Below, in pieces: positions 1,716 to 12,279 of a stretch of 42,981 bases of DNA. Positions within the stretch are counted from its first letter, which is position 1; every line of letters starts with the position of its first letter. Below the pieces are notes generated by a model, which had not been told where the DNA came from, did no database searches, and worked only from the letters and a program-made list of their open reading frames with translations. The stretch comes from Lachnospiraceae bacterium (GTDB lineage Bacteria > Bacillota > Clostridia > Lachnospirales > Lachnospiraceae). Location: NCBI GenBank assembly GCA_017482485.1, contig JAFUMV010000086.1, forward strand, positions 1-42,981. The letters run 5' to 3'. A program made the position numbers and the translations under genes.

Positions 1716-2624
1716 ATGCCCACAAACGATTTACAAACAAATAAGGAATCCGTACATCATGCGGAAGATGTGGCGAACAAATATATCGCCATGCATTTCG
1801 GTCAGGAAATGGTGAACCATTTTCATATTCCGGAGCGAATCAAACAGGTCGCTCCCACCGCCCCGATTTCCATTCAGGTGAAGGAACTATATGAGGACTT
1901 TTGTTACATCATGGAAAACGGCGAATGGCATCACTTTGAGTTTGAAAGTGACCGCATCACCGTTGATGATCTGCGTCGCTTCCGCGAGTATGAAGCCGTA
2001 ACCAGCCGCACCTATAAGGCTGCGCTTGTTACCCACGTGCTCTGCAGCGCGGATGTCAAACATCCGCTTTCCAGCCTGACAGAAGGCATCAACACTTATC
2101 GGGTAAAAGTCCACCGCTACAAAAAGGAAAGTGCTGATCGTCTTTTCGCCCGTCTGCGAAAGAAAAAAGCAAATGAAATTACCCGCCAGGATCTGGTAGC
2201 AGTCATGTATGTGCCGTTGATGAGCGGCAAAATGTCGATCAAAGACCGCATCCAGGAGGGGCTGCGGCTTTTAAATGCAGAGTATGATCAAATCTGCAAC
2301 CAAGATTTAAAAAAAATGCAGGCTGTTTTATACGTACTTGCAAGCAAATTTTTAACCCAAAAAGAAATGAAAGACGTAAAGGAGGAATTTTCCATGAATC
2401 CATTGGGACAGATGATTTTTGATGATGGTAAGGCTGCCGGATTAACAGAAGGCCGTGCGGAGGGCCGGGCTTTGAGCGTGATCGACATGCTCAGCGACCT
2501 TGGCACAGTCGCTTCAGATCTCACTTTAAAGATTATGAGCGAGAATGATGATTCCGTCTTACGCAGGTGGTTAAAGCTCGCCGCACATGCCCAAAGCATT
2601 GACGAGTTTCAGTCTGCAATGTAA
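1716..2624 (+). CDS. Rpn/PD-(D/E)XK nuclease family protein (putative transposase-related)
   Basis: A 302-residue protein with the architecture of the Rpn (recombination-promoting nuclease)/YhgA-like family. The N-terminal part has a PD-(D/E)XK-like core in which D61 is followed by HFEFES around residues 73-78 and then RRFREYEA. The middle is helical. The C-terminus carries the glycine-spaced DDGKAAGLTEGRAEGRAL segment (about 235-253) common in these proteins. Rpn proteins are DNA endonucleases linked to RecA-independent recombination, and many copies occur in Firmicutes genomes. The canonical lysine of ExK is not obvious here (EFES), so activity is uncertain. The start has an AGAGAGG sequence only 3 bases upstream, closer than usual. 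It is convergent with the DUF4422 gene and shares a bidirectional terminator with it. It is probably accessory or mobile rather than part of glycan synthesis. Confidence 0.7.
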   Translation: MPTNDLQTNKESVHHAEDVANKYIAMHFGQEMVNHFHIPERIKQVAPTAPISIQVKELYEDFCYIMENGEWHHFEFESDRITVDDLRRFREYEAVTSRTYKAALVTHVLCSADVKHPLSSLTEGINTYRVKVHRYKKESADRLFARLRKKKANEITRQDLVAVMYVPLMSGKMSIKDRIQEGLRLLNAEYDQICNQDLKKMQAVLYVLASKFLTQKEMKDVKEEFSMNPLGQMIFDDGKAAGLTEGRAEGRALSVIDMLSDLGTVASDLTLKIMSENDDSVLRRWLKLAAHAQSIDEFQSAM

Positions 2625-3805: not shown

Positions 3806-5644
3806 ATGAAAATACGTTTAGCCGATTACGTTGCAGACTTTCTCGTGTCCCACGGCATCAGCGACTGTTTCACAGTCGTTGGCGGAGGTGCCATGCATTT
3901 GAATGATGCTTTCGGGCACAAAGAAGGGCTGCACTGCACTTATAATCATCATGAGCAGGCCTGCGCCATCGCGGCGGAAAGCTACGCCCGTTTGAACAAT
4001 ACGCCGGCGCTTTTGTGCGTCACCACGGGCCCCGGCGGCACCAATGCCATCACCGGCGTGGTGGGCGGCTGGCTGGATTCCATTCCCATGTTTGTGGTGA
4101 GCGGTCAGGTCAGATATGACACCACCGCAAGATATGCGCAGCAGTTTACGGACGGGCTGCCTCTGCGTGCCGTAGGCGATCAGGAATTTGACATCGTAAA
4201 ATCCGTGGAGTGTATGTGCAAATATGCGGCCATGCTGGAGGAGCCTTCCGACATCCGCTATATGCTGGAAAAGGCCTGGCATCTGATGGGCACCGGCCGT
4301 CCCGGCCCCGTGTGGCTGGATATTCCGGTCAATTTCCAGGGCGGTTATATCGAAACCGATGATTTGCGCGGTTATGATCCGGCAGAGGATGATGCTCTGC
4401 TGCCCCCTCCGGTTTCTGAGGATGTGATAGAAGAAATTCTGCAAAAAATTGCTGCTGCCAAACGGCCCGTTTTATATGCCGGCGGCGGTATCCGTTTATC
4501 CGGCGGCTATGAGCAGTTCCGCAAGGCCATCGAAAAGCTCGGCATTCCCGTTGTCACCTACTGGAACAGTGTGGATCTGATCGAGGATGCGCATCCCTTA
4601 TACTGCGGCCGGGGCGGCAATATGGGCGATCGTCCCGGCAACTTTGCCGTGCAGAATTCCGATCTTTTACTGGCTGTCGGCACCCGTATCAGCATCCGTC
4701 AGGTGGGGTATAACTGGCAGACCTGGGCCCGGGAAGCGCACGTGATCATGGTGGATGTCGATCCGGCCGAATTAAAGAAGCCTACCATCCATGTGGAGAC
4801 ACCTGTATGGGCCGATGCAAAAGACTTTTTTACCAGGATGAACGAAGTTCTGGCCAAGCGCACAAGGCCCGTATTTGAGGGAGAATGGTGGCGAAAACAG
4901 TGCCGTGACTGGAAAGAGACCTACCCTGCCACTCTGCCCCGTCATTGGGAGGAAAATGGTTTGACAGCCAATGTTTTTGCCTCCATCAAATATATCAGTC
5001 AGTGTCTGCCGGAAGGCAGCCTGACGGCGGTTTCCAACGGAGCCTGCTGTGTGGTGGGACATCAGAACTGGGTGATCAAAAAGGATACCCGTTTTATCAT
5101 CAACAGCGCCATCGCCAGCATGGGGTACGGGCTGCCCGCCGCAATCGGTCTTTGCATCGCCGGCGGCAGGAAGGATACGGTATGTCTGGAAGGCGACGGC
5201 AGCATCATGATGAACCTGCAGGAGCTGCAGACCATTGTGACAAACCGCCTGCCCATCAAGCTGTTTCTGATTAACAATCAGGGCTATCACAGCATCCGCA
5301 TCACCCAGAACAACCTGTTTCGGGAACACTGCAAGGTGGGAATCGGACCGGAAAGCGGAGACTTAGGTTTTCCCGATTTTTCCAAGATTGCGGCAGCCTT
5401 CGGTTTTCCTTATTATGCGGCCCATTCCAATGCAGAGATGAAGGAAGTTGTGAATCAGGTGCTGACACTGCCGGGCTTTGTGTTCTGCGAAATTTTCACC
5501 GATACGGTTCAGGTCTGGGAGCCAAAGAGCAGCACGAAGCGGCTTGAGGACGGTACCCTGGTGAGCCCTCCGCTGGAGGATCTGGCGCCCTTTCTGCCCA
5601 GGGAAGAGTTAAGGAAGAATATGTATATTAAGCCGATTGAATAA
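3806..5644 (+). CDS. thiamine-diphosphate-dependent enzyme, acetolactate-synthase-like
   Basis: A 612-residue member of the ThDP enzyme superfamily with the order of acetolactate synthase large subunit. The N-terminal PYR domain has VVGGGAMHLNDAF and the catalytic glutamate E50 in NHHEQACAIAAE; a central domain follows; the C-terminal PP domain has the ThDP/Mg motif EGDGS (462-466) ending in NN at 490-491. It is about 20-50 residues longer than typical AHAS. AAAGGA lies 8 bases before the ATG. It is monocistronic with its own promoter. Its position beside a CDP-3,6-dideoxyhexose pathway suggests a YerE-like role, adding a two-carbon unit from pyruvate to a keto sugar. That is inference; a catabolic or biosynthetic acetolactate synthase remains possible, although no small subunit or ilv gene is adjacent. 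GC content is clearly above that of glf and the ATPase gene. Confidence 0.85.
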   Translation: MKIRLADYVADFLVSHGISDCFTVVGGGAMHLNDAFGHKEGLHCTYNHHEQACAIAAESYARLNNTPALLCVTTGPGGTNAITGVVGGWLDSIPMFVVSGQVRYDTTARYAQQFTDGLPLRAVGDQEFDIVKSVECMCKYAAMLEEPSDIRYMLEKAWHLMGTGRPGPVWLDIPVNFQGGYIETDDLRGYDPAEDDALLPPPVSEDVIEEILQKIAAAKRPVLYAGGGIRLSGGYEQFRKAIEKLGIPVVTYWNSVDLIEDAHPLYCGRGGNMGDRPGNFAVQNSDLLLAVGTRISIRQVGYNWQTWAREAHVIMVDVDPAELKKPTIHVETPVWADAKDFFTRMNEVLAKRTRPVFEGEWWRKQCRDWKETYPATLPRHWEENGLTANVFASIKYISQCLPEGSLTAVSNGACCVVGHQNWVIKKDTRFIINSAIASMGYGLPAAIGLCIAGGRKDTVCLEGDGSIMMNLQELQTIVTNRLPIKLFLINNQGYHSIRITQNNLFREHCKVGIGPESGDLGFPDFSKIAAAFGFPYYAAHSNAEMKEVVNQVLTLPGFVFCEIFTDTVQVWEPKSSTKRLEDGTLVSPPLEDLAPFLPREELRKNMYIKPIE

Positions 5645-5690
5645 TCTGTTTCACTGACTTTCCTATTGATTGCCAAATGTCTCTAACTTT

Positions 5691-5738
5691 AAAATCAGCC
5701 GATAAAAATCATCACATATGATTTTATCGGCTGATTTT
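5691..5738. terminator. bidirectional terminator between ThDP gene and nuclease-like gene
   Basis: Arms 5691-5712 and 5718-5738 (AAAATCAGCCGAT ... ATCGGCTGATTTT) pair over about 20 bp with one bulged A. The right arm overlaps the last codon of the minus-strand gene ending at 5737. It closes both converging transcripts. Confidence 0.85.
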
Positions 5739-6432
5739 AGCAAATCTTCATTTCCATTTGATACAGGTACTCTTCCCCATGCTCAGTCATAATTCCAATA
5801 TCAAAAGTAAACTCCTTTTCTGCTCCCCGTTCTTTATAGATAAACTTACGATTCAAAAACCTTTCACAAAGCTCTATTTCCTGTGCATCGCTGCTGCCGC
5901 TCATAGCCAGCATTTTTTTTGCAGCAAGCACCTTCTCCGAGTTCTCCTTCAATTCCTGCAACTTTTTCTTTTTAGCTTCCAGGCTCCGCCGGATTCTGCC
6001 TTCATCAAAGTTTCTGGTGATGACCATCAGCCTTTCCTTCATCCGAAAATCATCCGCCAGCATATAAAAAATCGTATGGCGCACATATCGCAGGCCGTCC
6101 TGCCATTGTTCACAAAGATGTGCTATCACATCTTCGCCGCCCACATCGGACTTCACATCAGCCACTACCGCTTCTCCTATGTTGTTATCCTCATCCACAA
6201 TCAGCGCTGTAATATCAGCCTTTTTGCGCCCTGTTTTCACCGCTGTCTCCGGAAGATATTCCTCTGCATAAATTCCGTATTGTCCCTCTTTCGGATAAAA
6301 TTTAATCTCTACCGAATCTCCGTTTTCCTTTTCCTTAAAATCGATAACCCGGTCTTTTTCTATGATATATAGATTTCGCTTACCGGGTACTTCGGCAGTT
6401 TTTAGTACTTTTCCGTTAATCGTTCGGGTCAT
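5737..6432 (-). CDS. putative PD-(D/E)XK-fold nuclease, partner of the AAA ATPase
   Basis: A 231-residue protein that I do not recognise as a named family. What can be seen: an N-terminal beta-rich region; the stretch 70-95 with KADITALIVD, a turn, and AVVADVKSD, giving D73-x18-D92-x-K94, the spacing expected of a PD-(D/E)XK nuclease core; a charged helical or coiled-coil segment (about 143-175, KKKKLQELKENSEKVLAAKK); and a C-terminal FTFDIGIMTEHGEEYLYQMEM stretch. No signal peptide or membrane segment is visible. It starts 5 bases after the ATPase stop and its ribosome site (GGAG) lies inside the ATPase 3' end, so the two are translationally coupled. ATPase plus nuclease pairs are typical of anti-phage systems, so an effector role is inferred. 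Alternatively it may be a non-enzymatic partner. Confidence 0.5.
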   Translation of the reverse strand: MTRTINGKVLKTAEVPGKRNLYIIEKDRVIDFKEKENGDSVEIKFYPKEGQYGIYAEEYLPETAVKTGRKKADITALIVDEDNNIGEAVVADVKSDVGGEDVIAHLCEQWQDGLRYVRHTIFYMLADDFRMKERLMVITRNFDEGRIRRSLEAKKKKLQELKENSEKVLAAKKMLAMSGSSDAQEIELCERFLNRKFIYKERGAEKEFTFDIGIMTEHGEEYLYQMEMKIC

Positions 6433-6437
6433 ACCGC

Positions 6438-7805
6438 TTACTCCATAACCGTCATTGATTCTTCATATAAGTTCTGTGCACTGTCCATAAACTGACTGAA
6501 ATCATATCCCGTATAAGGCACTCTTTTAAACTCAAGTTCTTTGACAATGCTGCTTCCGTTGTCCTGATTTACGAACTGATATACATGAACATGTTCAGAC
6601 TGCAGCAAATCTTCCTGCGTCAGTCCGAGCTTCTTTAATTTCGCTTCTTTTTCAGATGATGACTCTTCCGAAAAAGATAATAACAAAAGATTATTCATTT
6701 TTGATGCCATCGTGTCGCTGTGGGTGCTGATGACCAGTTTCTTCCCGCTGTTGTTCAGCCGCATCAGAAGTCGGGCCATCTCACCCTGCTTTGCAGGGTG
6801 AAGGCAGGTTTCAACTTCATCATAGAAAAAGCAAGAATAATCTCCAGTTCCGGTTAATGCTTTCACAAGCGGTGCCATTTCATTCACCATAGACGATGAA
6901 AGATAAAGAGGAACCTGAATTTCATTTTCCCTCGGTCTATAAACAGTATCATCTCCCTGTTGCAAAATTTTCCCATCGATCAAGTGATTTTCAATAAATC
7001 TAATTAATTCGGAATTTTTTTGCAGTTGGCGTTCACTCTGTGTATACAGCAGTAAAAATTGCAGAAAATCATATACCGGAGTCGTAAGCCCAAGTTCATT
7101 TTCAGTTTTTTCTCCATCACTGTTTTTTTCAAACTGCTGTACAATTCTTTTATCCCGTTCAGCAAAGAAATACTTATATAATAATAAAATGCCAGTTCTT
7201 GAAGGCGGAAGATACAAATTACCACTCCCGGAGCCCATATCAAAAATCAACTTGCAAATATTTTTTCCTACTATTGATCGCTCACGCTCTTTGCTTAATC
7301 CTCCATGTACAATCAATCTTACCCGATTCAAATTTTCTTTACTTTCCCGCATTCTCTTTTGAATCCAATAACTTCGCTTTGAGGGCTCTATAACCAAGTC
7401 ATCCCCGTTCTCCACTCGCAGCTTTGGAATCTCAACAGACTCATCAACAGAAACAACCATTTCTTCCAGTACATCTATAAACCTGATATACAGCCTATCA
7501 ATTGGTATCATTTTATGAAAAATTCTATTGATAATAGCATCTTTATTGATTTGAAGATATTCATTAATCCTTTGTTCATACACATCAAACCAACAGCCAT
7601 CAAATATCACCTTATTCTCAATTTCAAAGCTGAAATCTCCCCACGGTATCTCGACTTTCGGCACTTCCTGAAGGACTCCGTACAAAAGCTGCATCATATA
7701 AGATTTTCCACTGTTGTTATTGCCAACAAAAATAGTAAAATTGCTGATATCTATTTCAGCTGATCTAATCTTACCGAAATTGGAAACTCCAATAATGATT
7801 CTCAT
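6438..7805 (-). CDS. AAA/OLD-type ATP-binding protein (AAA15/ABC-like ATPase)
   Basis: A 455-residue P-loop ATPase. The N-terminus has the typical opening IGVSNFGKIRSAEIDI and Walker A GNNNSGKS at about 28-35. A YLPPSRTGIL motif follows near 200. The C-terminal half has Walker B CFFYDEVETCLHP (about 326-338) with the ABC-type ExxxHP, and the H-switch VISTHSD (about 359-365). This matches AAA15/OLD-like ATPases used by many defence systems; no C-terminal TOPRIM domain is visible, so the effector is presumably the downstream protein. The start codon abuts the stop of the GtrB-like glycosyltransferase (TAA then ATG) and uses a GAGGAG site inside that gene. Base composition in the middle is markedly more AT-rich than the upstream sugar genes, suggesting separate acquisition. 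Confidence 0.8.
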   Translation of the reverse strand: MRIIIGVSNFGKIRSAEIDISNFTIFVGNNNSGKSYMMQLLYGVLQEVPKVEIPWGDFSFEIENKVIFDGCWFDVYEQRINEYLQINKDAIINRIFHKMIPIDRLYIRFIDVLEEMVVSVDESVEIPKLRVENGDDLVIEPSKRSYWIQKRMRESKENLNRVRLIVHGGLSKERERSIVGKNICKLIFDMGSGSGNLYLPPSRTGILLLYKYFFAERDKRIVQQFEKNSDGEKTENELGLTTPVYDFLQFLLLYTQSERQLQKNSELIRFIENHLIDGKILQQGDDTVYRPRENEIQVPLYLSSSMVNEMAPLVKALTGTGDYSCFFYDEVETCLHPAKQGEMARLLMRLNNSGKKLVISTHSDTMASKMNNLLLLSFSEESSSEKEAKLKKLGLTQEDLLQSEHVHVYQFVNQDNGSSIVKELEFKRVPYTGYDFSQFMDSAQNLYEESMTVME

Positions 7806-8759
7806 TTATTTTTCACTCTCCTCAAAATTCAGCCGTTCCTCTTCCACAACAATCGGCCGATTGATTGTGCGGGTATTGATATTCAGAATATATTCTCCCA
7901 ACAGTCCGATGAAAAACAGCTGCAGAGAACCGATGACATAAACCCCCAGCATAACCGGTGCATTGCCTGCGCTGAAACGCTCCCACCAAATCAGCTTCAT
8001 CACGAGGTAAATCAACGCGATCAGGAGACTGATGCCGGAGGATAAAAAGCCAATCAGAGTCGCTATTCTCAGTCCCACCTTCGTATAGGAGGTGATGGAC
8101 AGCATTGCCGCATCATACAGGCTGTAGAAATTGTTTTTGGTTTTTCCTGCGCGTCTTGCCTCCTGTGTATACGGAATTTCAATCCGGTTGAAGCCATGTC
8201 CGTATTCCGCCACAATTCCCCGCAGGAAGGGGCTGGAGTCATTGAGCTGGCGCATCAGGTTGATAAAGCTTTTATCATATAAGCCGAAGCCGGTAAAATG
8301 TTCAATGAATTCGATTTTGGACATGGAACGGATCAGTTTATAGTACACGGTCCGCAGGAAATAGATGAATCCATTTTCCCTGCTGGAGGTTTTGACCGCA
8401 CTGACAATGCGGTGTCCCTTTTCCCATTCTTCCACAAATTTCGGGATCATTTCCACCGGATCCTGAAAATCGCAGCATAAAAGCACGGTGCAGTCTCCTG
8501 TAGTCTGGCACATTCCGTAAAAGGGGGAATTGAACTGTCCGAAATTTGCCGCATTGAAAATCGCTCTGATCTTTTTATTTTCCCTGCAGAGTTTGCGCAG
8601 CTTATCTCTGGTTCCGTCATTAGAACAGTTATCGATAAAAAGGATCTCATAATCATAGGAAGGCAGATCTCTTTCCATCACTTCAATCACTGCCGCGCTG
8701 ATCGGGCAGACATTTTCCACTTCATTATAGCATGGTATCATAATACTGATTTTTTTCAT
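7806..8759 (-). CDS. GT2 polyprenyl-phosphate glycosyltransferase, GtrB/ArnC-like
   Basis: A 317-residue membrane glycosyltransferase of family 2, DPM1/GtrB type. The GT-A domain begins SIMIPCYNEVENV and has FIDNCSNDGT and the metal-binding region LLCCDFQDPVEMI. Two C-terminal hydrophobic segments (roughly 230-253 and 267-292) anchor it in the membrane. Family members transfer a sugar from a nucleotide donor onto undecaprenyl phosphate on the cytoplasmic side; the lipid-linked sugar then modifies a glycan outside the membrane. Its place after three CDP-sugar genes (ATGA overlap with the reductase) suggests it uses the CDP-dideoxy sugar made by them, which is inference. The frame ends directly before the ATPase start. 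Confidence 0.85.
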   Translation of the reverse strand: MKKISIMIPCYNEVENVCPISAAVIEVMERDLPSYDYEILFIDNCSNDGTRDKLRKLCRENKKIRAIFNAANFGQFNSPFYGMCQTTGDCTVLLCCDFQDPVEMIPKFVEEWEKGHRIVSAVKTSSRENGFIYFLRTVYYKLIRSMSKIEFIEHFTGFGLYDKSFINLMRQLNDSSPFLRGIVAEYGHGFNRIEIPYTQEARRAGKTKNNFYSLYDAAMLSITSYTKVGLRIATLIGFLSSGISLLIALIYLVMKLIWWERFSAGNAPVMLGVYVIGSLQLFFIGLLGEYILNINTRTINRPIVVEEERLNFEESEK

Positions 8760-9718
8760 TGCTGTGTTCTCCAGACAAATTTTATCGTTTCCCGTATTCC
8801 TTCTTCAAAGGTGTATTTCGGCACAAATCCAACATCTTCCGTCAGCTCACGGATATCGGCGCACAGATACATCACCTGTCCCGGGCCGTAAGGAATGTCC
8901 CCCATTCCCAGCTTCGGCTTTTTCCGGCCTTCTGCCAGAAATTCCACAGCGCCGTCCCGGATCTGTAAAATGTAGTCTTTCAGCGGTTTTGCTTTTCCGC
9001 TGCCAAGGCAATATACTTTTCCGTCAATGCAGCTGCCGTCGCTGCTGCAGGCTTTTTTCCCGATCAGGTAAAACGCCTGTGCCGCATCTTTGCTGTAAAG
9101 GTAGTCCCACTGCTGTTCTCCGGCAGTAAAGGCGGCTTTCTCCCCTTTGAGCATTTTTTCGATAGAAGACATCACCATGGACTGTTTTTGATCATACGGT
9201 CCGTAAACGCTTAAAATGCGCACCCAGACGTGCTTCATGGACAGCTGACTGCACAGCAGTCTGCTCATCTGGCCGGCAGCCAGCTTGGCGATGCCGTATC
9301 CCATTTCCGGAAAAGCAGGTGTCTTCGCTGTCAGGTCACCCTCCTGGCGGCCATATTCCGCCTGGGAACCTGCTCCGATAAAGGTATGGCATCCGAATCT
9401 TTTGGCGAGCTCTGCGCTGTCCAGGGTCCATTTCACATTCTGTGTCTGCAGCTGTGTATCGTTGCGGCTGCTTCCCGTGGTTCCTGCCCAGGCCAGGTGA
9501 TAAAAAACATCCCATTGTTTCCCGGTCGTATTTTCAATCGTTGAAAACGCAGAAAGATCTGCATCCATTCTGGTCACCAGGGGATGGTTCGGAAGCTGGG
9601 CCGCTCTGGCGGAATCTTTGCGCACCAGCACCAGCACTTCTATCTCATGTTCGATAAAAGCTTCCAGCAGCGCCATACCGACTGCACCGGTAGCACCTGA
9701 AATTATCGCTCTTTTCAT
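8756..9718 (-). CDS. NAD(P)-dependent SDR sugar reductase/epimerase
   Basis: A 320-residue extended SDR protein. The nucleotide-binding motif is GATGAVG (8-14), and the catalytic set is S118 in GAGSQAEYG with Y141-x3-K145 (YGIAK). It overlaps the next gene by 4 bases (ATGA) and lies 59 bases after the E1 dehydrase gene. In CDP-3,6-dideoxyhexose pathways the step after E1/E3 is reduction of the C4 ketone by an SDR such as abequose or paratose synthase (RfbJ, RfbS), or reduction of a branched side chain by YerF. Either role fits the context; the exact substrate cannot be read from the sequence. It is likely a soluble cytoplasmic enzyme. Confidence 0.75.
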   Translation of the reverse strand: MKRAIISGATGAVGMALLEAFIEHEIEVLVLVRKDSARAAQLPNHPLVTRMDADLSAFSTIENTTGKQWDVFYHLAWAGTTGSSRNDTQLQTQNVKWTLDSAELAKRFGCHTFIGAGSQAEYGRQEGDLTAKTPAFPEMGYGIAKLAAGQMSRLLCSQLSMKHVWVRILSVYGPYDQKQSMVMSSIEKMLKGEKAAFTAGEQQWDYLYSKDAAQAFYLIGKKACSSDGSCIDGKVYCLGSGKAKPLKDYILQIRDGAVEFLAEGRKKPKLGMGDIPYGPGQVMYLCADIRELTEDVGFVPKYTFEEGIRETIKFVWRTQQ

Positions 9719-9777: not shown

Positions 9778-11118
9778 TTACTGCTCCACGGCCTCTTTAA
9801 TAACCTCTGCCATGTAATCGATCATTTCATCTGTCATGCCCGGATATACGCCTACCCAGAAAGTATCCTGCATGATTCTGTCCGTATTTTTCAAATCTCC
9901 CACAATGCGGAATCCCTCGCCGGACATACGCATTTCATCGAAGCAGGGATGTTTGATCAGGTTGCCGGCAAACAGCATTCTGGTCTGCACTCCTTTTTCC
10001 TCGATATAGGGAACCACTCTGTTTCTGTCCACGCCCTCTTTACAGGTCATCACAAATCCGAACCAGCTGGGAAGGGAATCCGGACATGCCTGAGGAAGGA
10101 TCAGATAATTTTCCACATCGGAAAGAGCAGCTTTTAATCTGTCAAAATTGTGCCTGCGACGCTCCACAAAGGAAGGGAACTTTTCCAGCTGGGCACAGCC
10201 GATGGCTGCCTGCAGATCGGTTGCTTTTAAATTATATCCAAAATGAGAGTACACATATTTATGATCATAGCCCAGCGGCAATTCTCCGTACTGTCTGTCA
10301 AAACGATGACCGCACAGGTTGTCTCGTCCTGAAGGGCAAACACAGTCTCTTCCCCAGTCCCTGAAAGAGCGGATGCACTTATGAAGCAGCGGGTTGTTGG
10401 TATAAACGGCGCCGCCTTCTCCCATGGTCATATGATGGGGCGGGTAAAAACTGGAGGTCCCGATATCGCCCACAGTTCCGGTCAGATATTCTTTTCCCTC
10501 CAAAGTATAAACCGAACCCAGCGCATCACAGTTATCCTCCACCAGCCACAGATTATGTCTGTCGCAGAATTCCTTCACCGTTTTTAAGTCGAACGGATTG
10601 CCCAGGGTGTGGGCGATCATAACCGCCTTCGTTTTTTCGGAAAGTGCTTCCTCCAGCATGTCCGTATCAATATTATACTGAGGAATGGTCACGTCCACAA
10701 AAACCGGCACCGTGCCATACTGAATGATGGGAGAAACGGTGGTGGGAAATCCCGCCGCCACGGTGATCACTTCATCTCCCCGCAGAATGCGCCTGTCTCC
10801 CAAAAGGGGCGATGTCAGCGCCATGAAAGCCAGCAGATTCGCGGAAGATCCGGAATTTACCAGGCTGCAGAATTTCACCTGCAGATATTCCGCCATTTTT
10901 CTTTCAAATTCATCCGTATATCTGCCGGAGGTCAGCCAGAATTCCAGCGCTGAGTCCACCAGGTTGGTCATTTCCCGGCTGTCGTAAACTCTGGATGCGT
11001 AAGGAATACGCTGCCCTTTTGTAAATTCTTTTTTCTGGTTATGATATTTATCACAATAGGCCTCAACCAGTTTCAGGATTTCCTGTCTGGCCTGGGCTTC
11101 ATTTTTTCCTTCAAACAT
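9778..11118 (-). CDS. rfbH: CDP-4-dehydro-6-deoxyglucose 3-dehydrase (E1, RfbH/AscC/DdhC type)
   Basis: This PMP- and [2Fe-2S]-dependent dehydrase removes the C3 hydroxyl from CDP-4-keto-6-deoxyglucose. The 446-residue protein has the aminotransferase-like fold, but the lysine that normally binds PLP is replaced by histidine in SFYPPHHMTMGEGG (about 223-236), the signature of E1. The cluster ligands are visible as C197 in VEDNCDALG and C259-x-C261-x7-C269 in RDCVCPSGRDNLC. I chose the ATG at 11118 (MFEGKNEAQ) because GAGGAG lies 8 bases before it; a GTG five codons upstream lacks a site. The electron-donating E3 reductase (RfbI/AscD) is not in the window, so it must come from elsewhere or the pathway is incomplete. 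Confidence 0.92.
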   Translation of the reverse strand: MFEGKNEAQARQEILKLVEAYCDKYHNQKKEFTKGQRIPYASRVYDSREMTNLVDSALEFWLTSGRYTDEFERKMAEYLQVKFCSLVNSGSSANLLAFMALTSPLLGDRRILRGDEVITVAAGFPTTVSPIIQYGTVPVFVDVTIPQYNIDTDMLEEALSEKTKAVMIAHTLGNPFDLKTVKEFCDRHNLWLVEDNCDALGSVYTLEGKEYLTGTVGDIGTSSFYPPHHMTMGEGGAVYTNNPLLHKCIRSFRDWGRDCVCPSGRDNLCGHRFDRQYGELPLGYDHKYVYSHFGYNLKATDLQAAIGCAQLEKFPSFVERRRHNFDRLKAALSDVENYLILPQACPDSLPSWFGFVMTCKEGVDRNRVVPYIEEKGVQTRMLFAGNLIKHPCFDEMRMSGEGFRIVGDLKNTDRIMQDTFWVGVYPGMTDEMIDYMAEVIKEAVEQ

Positions 11119-11202
11119 GAATTTTCTCCTCACCGTACCTTACAGGGGCAATGGCTTCCTTCCCTGCAGTGCACCGTTTTTTCTGCAGCAGTCCTTTTTT
11201 TG

Positions 11203-12279
11203 TCAGCCTTCTTTGGCCTGCCCAAAGAAATCTTCGATCTGCCGCTCCATACAGGCGGCAACATCCTCACAGTCCCGCCATGTTTTTGCCCATTCCACAG
11301 ATTTCTCCACCGCCATCTCAATATTCCAGACCGGCTTCCATGAAAATTTACGTTTCAGTCTGGAACAGTCCAGTTTTAAAAAATTGGCCTCATGAGGCTG
11401 GGACAGCGCAAGCCTGCGGTCCAGAAGCTCCCACTTCTGAGCTTCTCCCCACTTTTGGCAAAAGATCGTCACCAGCGCCCCTGTTGTAATACAGTCTGCA
11501 TCCTCCGGGCCCACATTATAAAAACCGGCATATGCTTTGTCTTCATACTGTTTTGCTGCAATCAAAAGGTATGCGTACAATGGCTCCAGCACATGCTGAA
11601 ACGGGCGGATTGACGCCGGATTTCTCACAATGATGTCCTCTTTTTTCACTGCGGCTCTGATGCAGTCCGGAATGATTCTGTCCTTTGCAAAATCGCCGCC
11701 GCCGATCACATTGCCGGCCCGGGCCGTCGATACGGCAACGTCCATATTCTGATAAAAAGAACGGATGTAACTGTGGGTCACCAGCTCCGAACAGGACTTC
11801 GAATTGGAATATGGATCATAGCCATCCAGCGGATCCTCTTCCCGGTATCCCCATTCCCATTCCCGGTTATCATATACCTTGTCAGTGGTCACATTCAAAA
11901 AAGATTTCACACAGGGATTCAACCGCACACATTCGCAGATGTTCACGGTTCCCATCACATTCGTTTCATAGGTATAAACAGGCTCCTCATAGGAAGTCCG
12001 CACGATGGGCTGTGCCGCCAGATGAAACACAATCTCCGGCCGGGCTTCATCAAAAACCTGCTTTAGATGCGCAAGATCCCGGATATCTCCAATCACAGAA
12101 TTCATCTGTTCCTCCAGCTGAAGGATTTCAAACAGCGACGGGGATGTGGGGGGCTTAAGACTGTAGCCTGTGACCTTCGCTCCCGCATCCGTCAGGATTT
12201 TGCACAGCCAGCTTCCCTTAAAACCTGTGTGTCCGGTGACCAGCACTTTTTTATTTTTATAAAAATCCAGTAATTTCAT
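11203..12279 (-). CDS. rfbG: CDP-glucose 4,6-dehydratase
   Basis: A 358-residue extended SDR that converts CDP-glucose to CDP-4-keto-6-deoxyglucose, the entry step to 3,6-dideoxyhexoses. The motif TGHTGFKGSWL (15-25) is characteristic of CDP-glucose rather than dTDP-glucose dehydratases. The catalytic region has NVTTDKVYDN (129-138) and Y157-x3-K161 (YSNSK). Length is normal. It is the first gene of a transcription unit with a good promoter just upstream, followed by E1. The usual partner glucose-1-phosphate cytidylyltransferase (RfbF) is missing from the window. GGAAG precedes the ATG. Confidence 0.93.
   Translation of the reverse strand: MKLLDFYKNKKVLVTGHTGFKGSWLCKILTDAGAKVTGYSLKPPTSPSLFEILQLEEQMNSVIGDIRDLAHLKQVFDEARPEIVFHLAAQPIVRTSYEEPVYTYETNVMGTVNICECVRLNPCVKSFLNVTTDKVYDNREWEWGYREEDPLDGYDPYSNSKSCSELVTHSYIRSFYQNMDVAVSTARAGNVIGGGDFAKDRIIPDCIRAAVKKEDIIVRNPASIRPFQHVLEPLYAYLLIAAKQYEDKAYAGFYNVGPEDADCITTGALVTIFCQKWGEAQKWELLDRRLALSQPHEANFLKLDCSRLKRKFSWKPVWNIEMAVEKSVEWAKTWRDCEDVAACMERQIEDFFGQAKEG

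Follow-up and report, generated by a model that had tools for sequence, protein, structure and literature searches.

PD-T4-4 is an anti-phage system of E. coli, T4 being the phage indicated by its name (Vassallo et al., 2022; PMC9519451, from the portion of the text available). WonAB, carried by the V. cholerae WASA-1 prophage, is a two-gene system composed of an OLD-ABC ATPase and a short PD-(D/E)xK partner; according to the available portion of its description, neither gene and neither activity is dispensable, and residues K34, R182, E300, and H333 of WonA are essential (PMC12137116). Activation of WonAB is described there as inhibiting translation, aborting infection, and leaving DNA intact, WonB is toxic only with WonA, and homologs are reported mainly in Gram-negative bacteria (PMC12137116).

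Here, we describe a gene pair comparable to these systems in a 42,981-nucleotide stretch of Lachnospiraceae DNA (the window). The pair and its surroundings are as follows, the four sugar-related genes being given as context:

5690..5739, no strand: 18-bp perfect inverted repeat (loop of 14 bases), between B and the TPP-enzyme gene that converges on it
5737..6432, minus strand: B, a 231-aa probable PD-(D/E)xK-like effector, from the residue columns of a nine-row alignment
6438..7805, minus strand: A, a 455-aa OLD-type ABC/AAA_15 ATPase (Pfam AAA_15, 1.9e-20; PADLOC PD-T4-4_A, 3.8e-40)
7806..8759, minus strand: GT2 glycosyltransferase, the stop of which abuts the start of A (PF00535, 2.2e-19)
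8756..9718, minus strand: NAD-dependent epimerase/dehydratase of the sugar operon (PF01370, 1.1e-32)
9778..11133, minus strand: DegT-type enzyme, which we take to be RfbH-like (PF01041, 6.3e-86)
11203..12279, minus strand: sugar-nucleotide dehydratase, presumably CDP-glucose 4,6-dehydratase-like (PF16363, 2.3e-40)

The GT2 stop and the A start form TAAATG with zero bases between them and GAGGAG just upstream, and B follows A after 5 bases. The sequence-only reading had located both ORFs at these positions, leaving their minus strand unstated, and its description of the abutting stop and start, the 5-base gap, the 231-residue length and D73-x18-D92-x-K94 arrangement of B, and the ATPase motifs of A (GNNNSGKS, here within FVGNNNSGKS, YDEVETCLHP, and STHSD) proved accurate. 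The inverted repeat at which B ends is a probable two-way terminator; it is absent from the output of a terminator scan that had a loop limit of 8. Elsewhere in the window (1716-2624), a 302-aa ORF with no Pfam match at 0.001 lies between the genes for UDP-galactopyranose mutase and a DUF4422 protein.

Six Pfam matches were obtained for A, which include AAA_21 in addition to AAA_15; no TOPRIM family is among them, and assignment of A to the OLD / Gabija GajA type was rejected because these matches give no C-terminal TOPRIM nuclease domain. The PADLOC match to PD-T4-4_A covers residues 7-445 of 455, with PDC-M47A (1e-26) and AriA (6e-22) ranking next of the 83 families that reach E ≤ 1, and a PDB sequence search with A returned matches that include OLD, PtuA, and AriA chains. 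The landmarks of A are Walker A GNNNSGKS (K34), R203, the DE at 329-330, and H362, and six residues (K34, R203, E330, H336, H362, and D364) are identical in 16/16 aligned homologs. The PD-T4-4_A model is unspecific: at E ≤ 0.001, it gave weak matches in 10 control genomes out of 14 and also matched in 6/6 genomes of a further set (window A at 1.6e-39, next best 3.3e-10), and ATPases with other partners match it equally well (L021, 4.2e-39; L025, 1.2e-39). Thus, the assignment of A to the PD-T4-4_A kind is firm, without singling out PD-T4-4 itself. A was found in no record of the phage collection and in three records of the plasmid collection.

For B, searches with the window protein and nine members of its family gave no convincing family in Pfam, PADLOC, or NCBIfam (best stray match, 0.0035). 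None of the nine members matched the PD-T4-4_B models (0/9), for which reason filing of the pair as PD-T4-4 was rejected, and PADLOC gave no match of B to PDC-M47B, PtuB, or AriB; without a PtuB or AriB match, B was also rejected as a Septu or PARIS partner. A PDB sequence search with B gave a single poor match (0.025), and B was unmatched in the phage, plasmid, and viral-contig collections.

The nuclease-like core that the sequence-only reading had proposed for B held in one respect and failed in another. As a pattern in a single sequence it is at chance level, D-x(8-25)-[DE]-x-K being present in 1925 of 2000 shuffles of B. Conservation of D73, D92, and K94 in homologs raises it above chance: the PD-(D/E)xK superfamily pattern D ... 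(D/E)-x-K is kept at these positions in 9/9 aligned sequences, in which K70 and Q109 are also invariant; the nine-row alignment (A3) has 14 invariant columns that include these three; and the probability of finding invariance in all of three columns chosen in advance is ~2e-4. On these conserved residues, B is likely to be a nuclease, though not necessarily a DNase, even if WonB-like, since WonAB activation spares DNA.

Profile comparisons, all made with shallow profiles (9 rows for B, 2 for PD-T4-4_B, and 3 for the partner of the sister ATPase clade), place B at a distance from both reference partners. In hhalign, the residues K, D, D, and K of B and PD-T4-4_B (K-x-x-D and D-x-K) fall in register, but the score is little better than that of column shuffles, 2 of 60 of which reach it; the comparison of B with the sister-clade partner is at chance level (24/60 shuffles as good), and homology between the two was rejected as not demonstrable. 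The sister-clade partner and PD-T4-4_B resemble each other (0/60 shuffles reach the score), which means that B is either far diverged or a replaced effector. A different proposal is that B is an adaptor, or some other effector than a nuclease, in which acidic and lysine residues are conserved by happenstance, and the failure to detect homology to known nucleases would fit this. We consider it unlikely, while leaving it appreciable weight: in addition to the in-register alignment of the four residues, the invariant K-x-x-D ... D-x-K ... Q of B resembles K88-x-x-D91 ... D-Q-K110 ... Q122 of PD-T4-4_B, with spacings 2-3 off.

The pair is rare. Among 397 genomes of the family Lachnospiraceae, 4 have B, as do 2 of 391 genomes of a class sample (its own genome included in each), and in a phylum sample of 398 genomes it was found in its own genome together with one marginal match; the three samples overlap, and the phylum/class-sample match outside the family (9.9e-4 over 69 residues) was taken as chance. 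All 12 other genomes of the same genus lack B, two of them being <70% complete. Scanning genomes with the A alignment yielded 21 loci. A tree was built from 18 ATPases and midpoint-rooted for drawing only; in it, window A belongs to a clade of 11 (support 100/99) on contigs mostly titled Lachnospiraceae, and PD-T4-4 and a Bernardetia homolog lie across a 100/100 branch from this clade. L023, L024, L027, L028, and L029 were left out of the tree; the partner genes of L023, L024, L027, and L029 are not among the loci read, and the ATPase of L028 is interrupted by N. L020 has no partner ORF of at least 120 aa before the contig end, and in Eubacterium sp. 14-2 (L021:9330-9980) the sister-clade partner gene is apparently frameshifted relative to L022.

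Window-type B follows the ATPase in 11/11 members of the clade, in a shortened form in L018. These 11 members and L009 make up 12 distinct pair loci (L013, L010, and L019 were taken as the contigs of L002, L003, and L004 and counted once); alignment A3 is without L017 and L018, and L009 was left out of both A3 and the tree. The contig of L018 is titled Gastranaerophilales, yet its ATPase groups with those of Lachnospiraceae, which points to mis-binning or transfer. The distances of A and B are correlated at 0.986 over nine loci, with 0 of 5000 permutations as high, which indicates that the two genes have been inherited together. The pair is thus real and co-inherited, and its effector family is one that the searched libraries do not recognize.

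The sequence-only reading had also asked whether such pairs recur beside other defense genes, and this is the case. In 6 of the 12 pair loci (L014 to L019), which are all six loci of one subclade, the gene after B is of the AIPR/AbiU type; the L016 copy was scanned (PF10592, 1.5e-43; AbiU, 3.7e-78), and the other five were assigned from similar translations. Further defense-type neighbors are a SNF2/HEPN helicase downstream and a SLFN_AlbA_2 gene upstream in L015, and a C5 DNA methylase upstream in L019. The L015 helicase (L015:12708-16271), a 1187-aa SNF2 protein with a HEPN_Swt1 domain, adjoins the trio of A, B, and AIPR and is possibly a further defense gene.

Damage to B is evident in two relatives. 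In L009 (7941-9350), an in-frame deletion has removed the nuclease core, so that the ATPase continues directly into the final ~40 residues of B, and Walker A reads GKP; judged by its sequence, this locus is a decayed copy of the module. In L018 (1617-2165), the shortened B lies upstream of the AIPR gene. Such damage is as expected if B is costly, and together with the patchy distribution of the pair it could suit a toxin-antitoxin-like or anti-mobile-element module, in which a toxic B would be held in check by A and the benefit would be selfish or anti-plasmid rather than anti-phage. We consider this unlikely: the AIPR neighbor points to phage defense, and in the nearest studied system the toxicity of WonB needs WonA, which disfavors simple sequestration (PMC12137116, available portion).

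In preference to such a module, we consider it probable that A and B form a co-translated anti-phage module of the OLD-ABC-ATPase and nuclease kind. The homology of A to PD-T4-4_A, the invariant residues, co-inheritance, the patchy distribution, and the recurrent defense-type neighbors all support this. The earlier proposal of a two-gene ATPase-nuclease defense module is accordingly upheld by the full-length PD-T4-4_A match, the fixed A-B order, and AIPR/AbiU in 6/12 loci, but less so for its nuclease half, as B has no detectable nuclease homology.

The sequence-only reading had gone further and linked the pair to surface-glycan expression. Recognized glycan clusters occur at 3 of the 12 pair loci: the window; L017, where the pair comes directly after a Bac_transf gene with a gap of about 34 bases; and L012, where it lies between UDPG-dehydrogenase/Bac_transf and a NusG-type gene. 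At the other nine, no glycan cluster was recognized by eye in stretches that were partly covered, with almost no sequence upstream of L014 and L018, and with coverage of L009 and L011 confined, on one or both sides, to the immediate vicinity of the pair; the pair is therefore found outside recognized glycan loci as well as within them. Two genes were not counted as glycan: a GtrII-type glucosyltransferase gene (L014:3919-5457; PF14264, 1.5e-18), separated by 14 bases from the preceding AIPR gene, and an MBOAT gene upstream of the pair in L010.

Orthologs of the GT2 gene with 62-86% identity are present in the same genus (G001, G012, G006, and G009), and the pair is absent after GT2 in all four of these inspected operons; what follows GT2 is instead an opposite-strand gene in G001 and G012, a gene judged by eye to be methyltransferase-like in G006, and the TPP gene in G009. 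Further orthologs at 52% and 41% (G007 and G008) are outside the four operons inspected. The TPP enzyme gene (3806-5644) is opposite to the sugar genes in the window and co-directional with the epimerase and GT2 genes in G001, G012, and G009, a difference in orientation that indicates rearrangement of the sugar cassette. At 37.5%, A has a lower G+C content than any other of the 35 ORFs measured in the window; the four adjacent sugar genes have 45-52%. Given this low G+C and the absence of the pair from the same-genus operons, its position at the 3' end of the glycan operon is most simply explained as a lineage-specific insertion that uses the operon transcript. A conserved glycan function of the pair was rejected on its absence from these 4/4 operons and on the 9/12 loci without a recognized cluster, and glycan coupling as a rule is unsupported on the same counts.

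In the genome of the window, 3.6% of the sequence lies no more than 5 kb from a GT2 gene, and 5.6% no more than 10 kb. Among the matches listed and the neighbors read, a GT2 gene is within 5 kb of the pair in the window only; the L017 GT2 gene is ~5.3 kb from A, and L012 has no recognized GT2 gene in the stretch read. Against this background, enrichment of the pair in glycan loci is not established; binomial enrichment figures with k = 3 were discarded, as they set a broad glycan-locus count against a narrow GT2 background. Functional coupling, whereby glycan expression (receptor change) and intracellular defense would be switched together, might be read from the TAAATG junction and from the two other subclades that are also in exopolysaccharide-type loci (L017 and L012). 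The same-genus operons, the small share of pair loci with glycan clusters, and the lack of demonstrated enrichment argue against it, as does the inspection for a switch: no recombinase or invertible promoter was recognized by eye in the window ORF lists, and none of 25 inspected among 72 imperfect inverted repeats is a convincing invertible promoter. We therefore regard coupling as highly doubtful, and the glycan linkage as probably incidental and due to chance.

For the anti-phage module, the WonAB mode, carried over by analogy, would be the likeliest working model. A would dimerize, bind ATP, and sense a signal linked to infection; B, as a PD-(D/E)xK-like nuclease controlled by A, would be activated on infection; and the infected cell would stop before phage are made, as reported for WonAB (PMC12137116, available portion). 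The nuclease fold, activity, and target of B, complex formation, phage sensing, the trigger, and the abortive outcome are elements of this model that we infer. A bolder version, which we find improbable, holds that B represents an undescribed effector family that has taken the place of the usual nuclease alongside a PD-T4-4-type ATPase in Lachnospiraceae, that one subclade has added AIPR to give a three-gene system, and that in three separate lineages the module has settled in surface-glycan operons, tying defense to the phage receptor layer.

Neither the A-B pair nor the three-gene AIPR form is described in the titles and abstract openings of the literature searched on related systems. The pair would add an effector family unrecognized by the searched libraries, as well as the three-gene form, to a known defense kind in which the ATPase is known and the partners vary, and it would permit a direct test, in gut Lachnospiraceae, of whether the ATPase serves as a shared chassis on which effectors can be exchanged.

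Among known systems, PD-T4-4 has an ATPase homologous to A over its length, a short partner gene directly downstream as in the window, and K-x-x-D and D-x-K residues in common with B. In a plasmid copy of PD-T4-4 proper (A, 2.2e-258; B, 5.2e-107), the two genes likewise stand in the order A then B; however, A shares 23% identity with the ATPase of the E. albertii plasmid copy, across the 100/100 branch, and the PD-T4-4_B models do not recognize B. The PADLOC candidate PDC-M47, for which no publication was found in our literature search, resembles the pair in its ATPase and differs from it in its partner. AbiU / AIPR abortive-infection proteins are encoded after B in the related subclade of six loci, but not beside the window pair. 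An operon of an OLD-ABC ATPase and a novel REase, from a survey cited in the available portion of PMC12137116, has the same architecture by description only. WonAB, likened here by description and not by sequence, also shares the two-gene architecture, and the Walker A lysine of WonA is likewise residue 34; of the other invariant residues of A, R203, E330, and H362 may correspond to R182, E300, and H333 of WonA. By its sequence, the pair would thus be a variant of the OLD-ABC-ATPase and PD-(D/E)xK kind of defense to which PD-T4-4 and WonAB belong, and a member of neither.
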